Shown: piece by piece, positions 2,962 to 22,913 of the stretch | Layout: each line of letters opens with the position of its first letter | How positions within the stretch are numbered: the stretch's first letter is position 1 | Source of the DNA: a virus | Virus record (IMG/VR): IMGVR_UViG_3300047481_000096 | Span: 1-22,913 of that record | Strand: one strand, 5' to 3' | DNA: 22,913 nucleotides | The notes under the pieces: model-generated | The model's input: only the letters and a program-made list of their open reading frames with translations | Databases searched by the model: none | Told to the model about the DNA's origin: nothing | Translations under genes and position numbers: made by a program

Positions 2962-4197
2962 CTACAGTTGAATTTGATTGACTGCGACAATGCCAGCGGG
3001 GGCTGCTGGGTAGTCATTTGGAGCGACTCCACCAGCTGCAATGGTCACAAGCGAGACGTTCGTGCTATCGGCCTGCCACCATAGTTCGATGTAATCGCCT
3101 GCATCGAGACTGAAAAACTCTGAGAGCGAAATCGGTGAATATCCATTATTGATGTCAAGCGTGATTGCTCTTGTCGTGTTGGCAATGTTTGTTCCGTTCT
3201 TTTTGAACCAGAAAAGAATGTTTTTTGCGCTTGAGCTGCCGCTTTGAAGCTGAAGTGTTACGTCAAACTGATAAAGACCAGACTCAACCACCGTCAGTTG
3301 GGAACTTGAAACAATGCTGATGCCATTGGCAATCTCGGTGTTGTCCCAGGTGATGACGTTGGAAGTGTTGGCTCCCGTTGGGGAAGTTGACGCACCAGTC
3401 TTGGTGAACTCGCCATAGTATTGCTGTTGCTGGATGGTCGGTCGAACGAAAATCTCGCCTGTGGTGGCATTGCTCTCAAGAACAGCGGCCACCGGGATCA
3501 CGTTGTCTGGGGCGGTAGGCTTGACGTTGGTCAGACCTCCAGCCACCGTCGGGCTTGCATAAAGAACGTCTCCGATTGAGAAGGCGCTTGTGTCGATTCC
3601 CTCAATATGGCCCCAGACCTGGGCATAGCCAATCTGTCCAGCGTTCGGAAGATCATGGGCCATGATTCCCAGAATGTAGAGCGATGGGCTTGAACCGTCA
3701 GCAAGATAAGGCGCAACAGAAATCACGTTGTTGGCGCTGACACCGACGAATCCAACAACTTCACCCTTATTGATCGTCGAGCCTGTGGCGTTCTCCACTC
3801 TCGCGTAATAATCAAGGCCAATCCTCTGGATCACCCCATAATCCATGCCTAGCTGCGCGGTCTGCTCTGCGTTATCCCAGGCAAGCCTTCGGATTCGCTC
3901 AACATGAGGCGCGGCCTGGTTGAGATCGATGTAATCCGTGACAACAGAATTATTGTTCTCGATGGATGGAGCAGACGCGAGAAGCTGAACTATTCTTTGC
4001 AGTGCCGCAATCTGTGCGAGGGCTTCGTTGGCGCTGGCCGCTGCCGAGTCTGCTTGGAACTCAAAGTCTGTCCCGACGATTGGGGCCAGGGTCTGGACGG
4101 TGGCAAACAGATTTTCAAACTGCTTGATCTGCTCAAAGTCTTGGAGGAAAGAAGCTAACTGGTCTCGGGTTAGCTTTAACGGGGGAATGATGGCCAT
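2962..4197 (-). CDS. Tail needle or short fibre candidate with C1q/TNF-like C-terminal domain
   Basis: A 411-residue protein in the gene position of P22 gp26 (tail needle), directly after the gp10-like gene. Residues 1-120 are helical and heptad-like (FLQDFEQIKQFENLFATVQT and following), fitting a trimeric coiled coil. Residues about 125-255 (from DYYARVENATGSTINKGEVV to GEIFVRP) form a Gly/Val-rich beta module that recurs in phage fibres. Residues about 270-400 resemble a C1q/TNF-like jelly roll: the strand pattern ESGLYQFDVTLQL, then NILFWFKKNG, then SLDAGDYIELWW is typical. The Sf6 tail needle is known to carry a TNF-like knob, so a needle with a receptor-interacting tip is a reasonable reading. 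Other options are a tail or head fibre. Start is set by coupling, one base after the gp10-like stop. Confidence 0.55.
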   Translation of the reverse strand: MAIIPPLKLTRDQLASFLQDFEQIKQFENLFATVQTLAPIVGTDFEFQADSAAASANEALAQIAALQRIVQLLASAPSIENNNSVVTDYIDLNQAAPHVERIRRLAWDNAEQTAQLGMDYGVIQRIGLDYYARVENATGSTINKGEVVGFVGVSANNVISVAPYLADGSSPSLYILGIMAHDLPNAGQIGYAQVWGHIEGIDTSAFSIGDVLYASPTVAGGLTNVKPTAPDNVIPVAAVLESNATTGEIFVRPTIQQQQYYGEFTKTGASTSPTGANTSNVITWDNTEIANGISIVSSSQLTVVESGLYQFDVTLQLQSGSSSAKNILFWFKKNGTNIANTTRAITLDINNGYSPISLSEFFSLDAGDYIELWWQADSTNVSLVTIAAGGVAPNDYPAAPAGIVAVNQIQL

Positions 4198-21822: not shown

Positions 21823-22161
21823 ATGCTGGTCCTACCTTGGCCACCCAAAGAGCTGTCACCTAATGCGCGAACCCACAGAATGGCCAAAGCCAAGGCCGCA
21901 AAGGCCTACCGCCATGCCTGCTGGGCCTTAACCAAAGAGGCGGGAGTATCACTTGGTGATCTACCCGTGCATTTGAAGATCACCTTCGTGCCGCCAACCC
22001 GGCAGCCCAGAGACCTCGACAACTGCCTGGCCGCGATCAAGTCGGGGATCGATGGCATGGCCGACGCGCTCGGAGTCAATGATCGAGACTTTCGACCTAT
22101 TACTGTTGACATCTCGCCAGACATCGGTGGGATGGTGATTGTTGAACTATTGGAAAATTGA
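21823..22161 (+). CDS. rusA: RusA-family Holliday junction resolvase
   Basis: A 112-residue endonuclease of the RusA family, which cuts four-way DNA junctions as a dimer. The N-terminal LPWPPKELSPNARTHRMAKA is the family signature (PPxxLSPNARxHxxxK). The catalytic acidic cluster is visible in QPRDLDNCLAAIKSGIDGMA (D64, D66) and in ADALGVNDRDF (D81 and D87). Conserved basic residues lie between, at K22-K27. It is the first rightward gene, with GGGGGAA before the ATG at 21823, and probably resolves recombination or replication intermediates together with Erf. Its length is slightly under that of E. coli RusA (120), and all expected residues are present. Confidence 0.92.
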   Translation: MLVLPWPPKELSPNARTHRMAKAKAAKAYRHACWALTKEAGVSLGDLPVHLKITFVPPTRQPRDLDNCLAAIKSGIDGMADALGVNDRDFRPITVDISPDIGGMVIVELLEN

Positions 22162-22185
22162 TGTATCATAGGAAATGTTGGAAGT

Positions 22186-22519
22186 GACGCTCCAGCATTT
22201 GGTCTAGGGAAGAACCTCTTAGTGAGGGCTTGAAGCCATCGTTCCTAGACCCGATGCTGGCTCCGTCAAAGCCCAAGTCCTCCCTAAGGGGTTTTTCTTT
22301 GGGCGCTCCGACCGTACTCCAGACGGACTGAGAGCGTAACCCCGCTGCGTGGAAGAAAAGGGTACAGGTAAGGGATCGAAAGATCACCCGGTGCAAATCC
22401 GTAAGAATCCTGCGGCTGGCAGACAACCAGTAGCCGAGGGCATAACGTAACCAATCGTTAGCTGACTGGTTCCGGCATAGGCCGGGGGCGATAACCTTGC
22501 TTTTTACCCTTGTGGGGTA
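22186..22519 (+). ncRNA. Candidate large structured RNA between rusA and a small ORF
   Basis: About 375 bases without a credible protein gene hold a near-continuous series of helices on the plus strand. Domain 1: GACG 22186-22189/22264-22267, CCAGCAT 22192-22198/22254-22260, a 10-pair stem 22201-22210/22242-22251, with two inner hairpins (CCTC/GAGG 22215-22227; GGCT/AGCC 22227-22237). Then GCCCAA 22271-22276/22299-22304, CGCTC 22304-22308/22332-22336 enclosing CCGT/ACGG 22312-22326. Domain 2: CAGG/CCTG 22365-22368/22409-22412 enclosing a GAAA-capped stem (22372-22388). Then CGGCT/AGCCG 22413-22436, CCGGC/GCCGG 22472-22485 and TACCC/GGGTA 22505-22519. A GNRA loop on the plus strand fixes orientation. 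It fits no family I can name: no group I P7 (AGACUA/UAGUC), RNase P, tmRNA or tRNA signature. Confidence 0.6.
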
Positions 22520-22541
22520 GGGGGCAGTTTGGGCGATAAAT

Positions 22542-22802
22542 ATGAAAAAGCAACCTACTGAGTACCTTTTAAACCCTAAAAAACCAGGATCAAAAGCTCA
22601 CATTTGGGTAGGATTCGATTCAGCGTGTCGAATGTTTAGTACGGGAGGAATGAGAAAAAAACGACAAAAATTGTTCAGCTCTACAATGGGTAAAGAAATT
22701 TGCCTCATGTGTATGAATGTTTCATCAATCAAAGAAGGAGAAGAAAATGGAAGAGTTCAAGAAGTTCTGGGATGCGTACCCTCGAAAGGTCGGCAAGGCT
22801 GA
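22542..22802 (+). CDS. Small CxxC phage protein downstream of the structured RNA
   Basis: An 86-residue frame starting 22 bases after the last RNA helix. Residues 18-60 (KAHIWVGFDSACRMFSTGGM, later MGKEICLMCMN) resemble a family of small phage proteins with a KxHIWxGxDTxCRMxSTGG opening and a later CxxC; His20, Cys29, Cys54 and Cys57 could bind zinc. Function unknown. No purine-rich ribosome binding site is visible just before the ATG, so translation may depend on the RNA structure or another element. The last 20 codons run through the ribosome binding site and start of the next gene (56-base overlap), and look unlike the conserved part; the original C-terminus may have been lost. The stretch is more A/T-rich than its surroundings. 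Confidence 0.55.
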   Translation: MKKQPTEYLLNPKKPGSKAHIWVGFDSACRMFSTGGMRKKRQKLFSSTMGKEICLMCMNVSSIKEGEENGRVQEVLGCVPSKGRQG

Positions 22803-22913
22803 AGCTCGAAAAGCCTGGGCGCAGACTGAGAAGATCAGGCCCGATGTCGAGACCATCATCAAAGCAATACACGCTGCCTGCAAGACTGAGCAATGGATGC
22901 GAGGCGGTGGGCA
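22747..22913 (+). CDS. Replication-module protein, N-terminus (partial)
   Basis: Starts at ATG 22747 with AAGGAG and six-base spacing (22735-22740), and runs off the window after 55 codons. The visible part, MEEFKKFWDAYPRKVGKAEA, then RKAWAQTEKIRPDVETIIKA and TEQWMRGGG, is the well-known FWxAYPRKxGKxxAxKAW module that occurs at the end of, or as a separate gene beside, phage replication initiators and DnaT/primosome-like proteins. It is usually followed by FIPxPxTWLNxxRW, which would lie outside the window. Its location after rusA suggests the replication module begins here. Confidence 0.8.
   Translation, partial: MEEFKKFWDAYPRKVGKAEARKAWAQTEKIRPDVETIIKAIHAACKTEQWMRGGG

Follow-up and report, generated by a model that had tools for sequence, protein, structure and literature searches.

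Genomic setting of the locus

The DNA analysed here (the window) is an entire IMG/VR record of 22,913 bases, which is linear and probably a fragment. A gap of 380 bases (22162–22541) separates the gene of a RusA-like Holliday junction resolvase (21823–22161, + strand; PHROG 34, E 1.2e-21) from a small open reading frame of 86 amino acids (22542–22802, + strand) without a PHROG or Pfam match. The latter overlaps the start of a gene for a replication initiation protein (22717–22913, + strand; PHROG 9474, E 1.3e-12), of which only the beginning is present, as it runs off the contig. Since the closest annotated relative of the RusA protein (48% identical) is found in a Limnohabitans phage, a betaproteobacterial host is likely, though not shown. 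ARAGORN finds no tRNA or tmRNA gene in the window.

The gap contains a promoter and two structured RNA modules, denoted A and B. The sigma-70-like promoter (TTGAAC-16-TATCAT, 22142–22169, + strand), found by a consensus scan, lies just 5' of module A; TATCAT/TATAAT-like boxes are seen by eye at the equivalent place in other members of the family. The initial annotation, made from this sequence alone, had proposed one large structured RNA. The helices that it listed are all in the sequence where it placed them, and the region is indeed structured, non-coding and covarying, but it consists of two separable modules. The folding energy of the whole gap region is unusual in comparison with shuffled sequences (z = -3.07) because of module A.

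Module A is a pseudoknotted, terminator-like RNA

Module A (22176–22300, + strand) folds more stably than any of 200 shuffles (z -4.68). The 5' strand of helix a (22185–22210; TGACG, CCAGCAT, GGTCTAGGGA) pairs with its 3' strand (22242–22268; TTCCTAGACC, ATGCTGG, CGTCA) in three segments, 22185–22189/22264–22268, 22192–22198/22254–22260 and 22201–22210/22242–22251. This is the "4+7+10" composite stem of the initial annotation, which is present but forms only one half of a pseudoknot. It is crossed by stem b/c, whose 5' strand (22215–22231; CCTCTTAG, GGGCTT) pairs with the 3' strand at 22269–22291 (AAGCCC, CTAAGGGG), the crossing part being 22215–22222/22284–22291. All four strands lie on the + strand and are supported by sequence and covariation. 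A terminator-like T-run, TTTTTCTTT (22292–22300, + strand), stands directly 3' of the stem, with an equal layout in other members: a 5' element reaches past a long terminator-like stem to pair with its inner loop, and the T-run follows. Across 113 members, the crossing helix scores 19.77 with its own partners and 15.76 with permuted ones (maximum 16.57; none of 2000 permutations reaches the observed value).

Promoter-like sequence followed by module A is found 5' of type I, type II and unclassified members of the family (defined below). Three lineages (loci L019, L029 and L033) appear by eye to have B without A, which indicates that B is separable from A.

Architecture of module B

Module B (22311–22539), a type I ornate RNA, is about 230 nt long (about 365 nt with A), and folds into about nine helices and two pseudoknots, together with a T-loop hairpin that is invariant. 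It is supported by 55 IMG/VR contigs and one metagenome-assembled genome (MAG), by a covariance model and by covariation. Module B and all of its elements are on the + strand.

The 5' domain (22312–22363), which is common to type I, type II and other RNAs, contains helices H1 (22318–22321/22350–22353) and H2 (22333–22336/22343–22346). The loop of H2 (22340–22342) pairs with 22360–22362 to form the first pseudoknot, PK1 (22339–22363), which is 97.6% paired, with double changes at two pairs; single members carry TAGACCT/GGGTCTA or AATCGG/CCGATT. With a loosely drawn window, a permutation test gave PK1 no significance (857 of 2000); the evidence for PK1, which rests on column counts and single members, is weaker than that for PK2. 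The closing helix H4, CAGG/CCTG (22365–22368/22409–22412), is 99.1% paired with CG, UA and AU exchanges. It encloses H5 (22372–22388), a GAAA-capped hairpin with one bulged A, which is 98.8% paired with double changes at all six pairs; this nested arrangement had been correctly recognised from the window alone. H5 is followed by a T-loop-like hairpin, CGG-UGCAAAU-CCG (22389–22401), identical in 28 of 28 members; some relatives have the loop UGCAAUU or GGCAGUU. The seven-nucleotide T-loop form is known from tRNA and other RNAs.

H6, CGGCT/AGCCG (22413–22436), is 95% paired, and its loop (22425–22431) pairs with 22465–22471 to form PK2 (22425–22471), with 6–9 base pairs in all 35 distinct members. 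Three hairpins complete the fold: H8, TAACG/CGTTA (22443–22460), which has a changed sequence in relatives by eye; H9, CCGG/CCGG (22472–22485), seen in the sequence and by eye in relatives; and the terminal hairpin H10 (22496–22527), which has a conserved G-rich strand, GGGGTAGGGGGCAG, in the alignment. The sequence of PK2 differs among members (ACCTCCA/TGGAGGT, ATACGCA/TGCGTAT, AACCAGT/ACTGGTT and others), and none of 2000 permutations reaches the observed score (17.01 against 12.39 when permuted). AACCAGT/ACTGGTT, the pairing of the window, had been taken for an alternative in competition with other helices; the pairing is real, but it is a pseudoknot compatible with them. A second proposed alternative, GCCCAA with TTGGGC, exists in the window, but no family support for it was seen, and its 3' part overlaps the repeat copy R2. 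The idea of a switch operating by competing pairings is thus not borne out, the main pair being a pseudoknot, and no evidence of a ligand switch was found.

On the alignment of type I members (A1), standard pairs occupy 91.4% of cells with a covariation of 0.498, compared with at most 48.5% and 0.109 when partners are slid by 1–3 columns. H1, H4, H5 and H6 are paired in 93–99% of cells, with frequent double changes. For the 5' domain, an alignment of 61 distinct sequences (A2) gives 93.8% of cells paired and a covariation of 0.658 (at most 0.119 when slid); H2 is paired in 69.6% of cells on A1 and 94.3% on A2. The + strand is the RNA strand, since G-U pairs far outnumber A-C pairs (66:17 on A1, 33:0 on A2).

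Taken by itself, module B shows no unusual stability (z = -0.23; 81 of 200 shuffles). Folding energy would neither prove nor disprove B, and the case for it is a comparative one. Its ordinary stability is the one point in favour of a chance structure, or of a cryptic protein-coding gap. Compensatory changes occur in every tested helix group, and members differ in the gap by insertions and deletions of all lengths, so that no shared reading frame would survive. A conserved protein frame without covariation, which the initial annotation had named as a refutation of its proposal, is not seen; it is the chance or coding explanation that the strong covariation refutes, and we regard it as practically ruled out.

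In four loci (L116, L131, L136 and L147) H5 is replaced by an insert of 100–154 nt, closed by TTGATGATGG/CCATCATCAA and beginning about 75 nt downstream of where the 5' domain starts. The insert of L136 holds a tRNA-like T arm (GGTTACGGGTTCGATTCCCGTCGCC), although ARAGORN calls no tRNA there. By eye, L132, L179 and L199 apparently have similar H5 inserts, and in L140 and L192 a comparable element lies just 5' of the RNA.

A direct repeat flanks the terminal hairpin

Two copies of a direct repeat, R1 (22486–22494) and R2 (22531–22539), both GGGCGATAA on the + strand, stand before and after H10, and conservation of the family stops at R2. The repeat is 6–9 nt long, and its two copies are identical within each intact type I member. 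In an unselected set of 37 members the match within a member averages 7.5 nt, against 4.46 nt for pairs taken across members; the exceptions are L021, a truncated locus, and L015, with a 5-nt match. Loci added later agree, giving 76 distinct members with more than 30 repeat sequences and an R1–R2 spacing of mostly 43–54 nt, but a member entered this larger set only if it showed a shared stretch of 6 nt or more. Where the repeat deviates, it does so in both copies together (GCTGATCT, TGTGAAC, GGTTGAAA, GGATGG).

It is surprising that a sequence that differs from phage to phage is constant inside one RNA, and we know of no other RNA class with a short direct repeat that varies between phages yet is identical within each RNA. 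No third strand complementary to R1/R2 was found in cis within about 400 nt (6.57 against 6.34). The identity of R1 and R2 without a complement in cis implies either that a trans partner changes in step with them or that the two copies are important for one another. A search for a direct repeat in type II RNAs found none.

Distribution and novelty of the family

The gap has no relatives among annotated phages and plasmids by blastn; queries with module B of relatives gave only short matches at chance level, and a 65-nt consensus of the 5' domain found nothing. A type I relative used as the query gave one match, of 53 nt, in the environmental phage MW202753. In that genome, part of the RNA (the 5' domain) lies inside an annotated hypothetical-protein CDS (MW202753.1 32238–32669; locus L232 2972–3403), which is possibly a spurious gene call. 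Searches of Rfam 15 with the window and relatives of B returned matches at chance level only, none above the gathering cut-off, in agreement with the initial annotation, which could name no family.

A sequence pattern derived from B, GGTGCAAATCCGTNANAATCC, identifies 51 IMG/VR contigs, and a second pattern adds 4 to give 55; a type I RNA is also present on one Burkholderiales MAG contig. Pattern-matched contigs that extend far enough all show the full architecture, with little sequence identity. Trained on 28 members, a covariance model detects a single copy in each phage record and aligns with the window over all 231 positions (189.8 bits); as the window is in the training set, independent support comes from the patterns and the PK2 test. 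The window has every type I feature, namely the 5' domain, H4/H5/T-loop, H6 with PK2, and R1-H10-R2. The pattern of the 5' domain, CGTACTCC..ACGA.A...A..GCGYGGAA, recurs in at least 120 viral stretches. What follows this domain takes at least two forms, the type I architecture of the window and a type II architecture without the direct repeat, besides some that remain unclassified. Among about 400 Burkholderiales genomes, B was found only in the MAG that defines the group, apart from one match to the 5' domain only; judged by these searches, B is essentially viral. In a Burkholderiales chromosome (G193; L110 1502–1553) the 5' domain stands alone, followed by an unrelated, possibly different RNA.

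The follow-up that the initial annotation had suggested thus gave a negative Rfam search, a set of homologues, and pairs that covary. Judged on sequence comparison, this is a recurrent structured RNA, on well over a hundred environmental phage contigs, that belongs to no catalogued family and is real and undescribed. Its identity as a family is near certain; its function is not. No prior description was found in open PMC papers, and a description elsewhere is not excluded. Within that literature we rate B as a categorically new RNA class, for which "ornate phage RNA" is a description and not a family; it belongs to a structured RNA superfamily that neither Rfam nor the literature, so far as searched, contains.

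Comparison with known RNAs

HEARO/OMEGA RNAs are non-coding RNAs with pseudoknots in mobile DNA. B is likewise a pseudoknotted non-coding RNA, but has no Rfam match, and no gene of the IscB/IsrB/TnpB type adjoins it in the clusters examined (not every neighbour was scanned); a HEARO/OMEGA identity is rejected on these grounds. Group I and group II introns are rejected for lack of an Rfam intron match, and a tRNA or tmRNA identity is rejected because both ARAGORN and Rfam are negative. GOLLD and ROOL are phage-borne, ornate RNAs of no known function, with tRNAs sometimes near or inside them (PMC12286853). B resembles them in being phage-encoded and highly structured with multiple pseudoknots, and in the tRNA-like insert of L136. 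Unlike them, it lies mostly away from tRNA islands, with a tRNA within 1.5–2 kb at 8 of 181 loci. GOLLD and ROOL exceed 650–800 nt; with about 230 nt B is too short, and with no match to an Rfam covariance model its membership is rejected. The initial comparison with the GOLLD/ROOL/HEARO class therefore holds for style only, there being no homology as far as Rfam can tell.

The T-loop hairpin of B is identical in sequence and closing pair to one in the cobalamin riboswitch (RF00174), and the rest of the fold differs. The invariant GGTGCAAATCCGT also occurs in L092, a Berkelbacteria MAG, where a cobalamin-riboswitch-like sequence (about 3433–3463) matches the T-loop 13-mer of B letter for letter and, in the covariance-model alignment, shares its closing helix. 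This leaves room for B as a distant cobalamin-type riboswitch, but we consider it very improbable: the likeness is confined to one hairpin and its closing pair, Rfam gives no cobalamin match even at E up to 10 in scans of short stretches, the downstream genes are unrelated to B12, and the T-loop itself varies in relatives.

Exchange of RNA modules behind module A

The slot between rusA and the replication gene carries A plus B in the window and in L018. The same slot holds A plus the Rfam family Betaproteobacteria-1 (RF02932) in the near relatives L053–L055, with covariance-model scores of 79 bits in L053 (1011–1132) and 77 bits in L055 (3489–3611), and A, an open reading frame and a type II RNA in L056, a near relative of the window. 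In comparisons between loci of type I, type II and Betaproteobacteria-1, module A shows 71–85% identity (85% between L042, type I, and L155, type II; 71% between the window and L053). The unit 3' of A is swapped like a cassette, and the RNA modules are interchangeable. Complete RNA modules are traded between phages while the promoter and probable attenuator stay constant, much as protein genes are.

Betaproteobacteria-1 is, like B, a structured RNA of unknown function; it has no sequence or structure match to B, its 5' domain differs, and the window is not reported by the Rfam search for it (cut-off 49.4 bits). Rfam assigns it the type sRNA gene, and it is also found in Burkholderiales chromosomes, where its copies show no clear R1/R2 rule. 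This orphan family gains functional neighbours by the present comparison.

Neighbouring genes

No single gene that co-occurs with the RNA was found when one was sought, and neighbours vary; the clusters looked at contain RusA, Erf, TerL, Cro/HNH, replication and unknown genes, and the downstream genes belong to many families. The nearest recognisable neighbours are oriented ++ in 68 loci, -+ in 12, -- in 12 (both on the opposite strand) and +- in 3, and in 109 of 127 loci the recognisable gene downstream runs in the same direction. These neighbours come from ordinary calling of open reading frames, and individual ones may be wrong. A + strand open reading frame of at least 45 amino acids starts no more than 150 nt from R2 in 70 of 76 type I members; in the lineage of L002, L050 and L052 nothing 3' of the RNA looks like a plausible sense gene. 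The members examined show no terminator after B, whose 3' end is therefore only guessed.

In about 25 mostly type II loci (range L111–L218) an upstream + strand open reading frame combines HNH_3 and P22-Cro-like domains, a homing endonuclease joined to a phage repressor, and mostly ends about 150 nt before the 5' domain.

Possible functions

We tentatively interpret the locus as an early-region phage RNA locus consisting of its own sigma-70-like promoter, module A and the compact, pseudoknotted module B, with B acting mainly in trans; our confidence in this reading, which we favour, falls somewhat short of even. The promoter would drive A, part of the transcription would read on into B, and A, being terminator-like, would probably set how much passes. 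B could then serve as scaffold or decoy, binding a partner by its conserved 5' domain and T-loop hairpin; the identical R sites beside the G-rich hairpin might offer one phage-specific partner two places to dock. The structures, their conservation, the + RNA strand, the identity of R1 and R2 and the exchange of the module behind A are observed; transcription, attenuation, action in trans and the partner are inferred. A trans-acting RNA is favoured because B is swapped for a family of sRNA type and occurs in antisense contexts, and it is supported by the lack of a tie to one gene, the locus's own promoter and the lineage without a sense gene. Against it stand the absence of expression data, of an identified partner and of a terminator found behind B, and the position of B 3' of a terminator-like stem with no promoter between them. 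The co-direction of the downstream gene and the open reading frames that follow R2 also fit a cis-acting leader.

A cis-acting gate of the early operon is thus a serious rival, possible although on balance doubtful. Phage lambda nutR/tR1 and HK022 put are positioned at a terminator between early genes. Here, A would be the attenuator in the place of nutR/tR1, and B or its type II counterpart would act as a gene-agnostic leader to control either RNA polymerase passage, by put-like antitermination, or ribosome loading on the next early gene. The inferred position of the RNA locus is comparable, and this reading draws its strength from the pronounced co-direction (including the 68 loci in ++ context) and from proximity to cro and replication genes: the roughly 25 mostly type II loci are ordered cro, A, RNA, early genes, an open reading frame follows R2 in 70 of 76 type I members, and A ends with a long stem and a T-run. 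However, the RNA of the window is much larger than put or nut-tR1 and lies after the terminator-like stem instead of before it; in one and the same slot, unrelated RNAs take the place of the 3' module, some contexts are antisense without a sense gene, and no comparable element was found in open PMC papers. Least supported of the three, and in our view unlikely, is a self-matching RNA, for which the mechanism is inferred: R1 would act on R2 as a built-in guide or anchor, for instance through base pairing with the DNA template strand there, so that the RNA recognises its adjoining DNA through 6–9 nt identical to its own 3' border. This could serve in an R-loop, in priming of replication, or in guided recombination or module exchange at the 3' boundary of the element. 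The match of R1 and R2 in all intact type I members, whatever their sequence, would be explained, as would the lack of a complementary third strand nearby and the location of R2 exactly where conservation ends and different genes are joined; but type II has no repeat, no nuclease or recombinase is common to the family, and a clean empty site was not found. If true, the element would be an RNA that has its specificity rewritten in two places at once. The self-matching reading can also point to nine type I loci (L113, L117, L120, L125, L126, L143, L163, L177 and L226) with weakly matching GIY-YIG/NUMOD3/AP2 open reading frames 300–880 nt upstream, which are suggestive of homing endonucleases near the type I locus.
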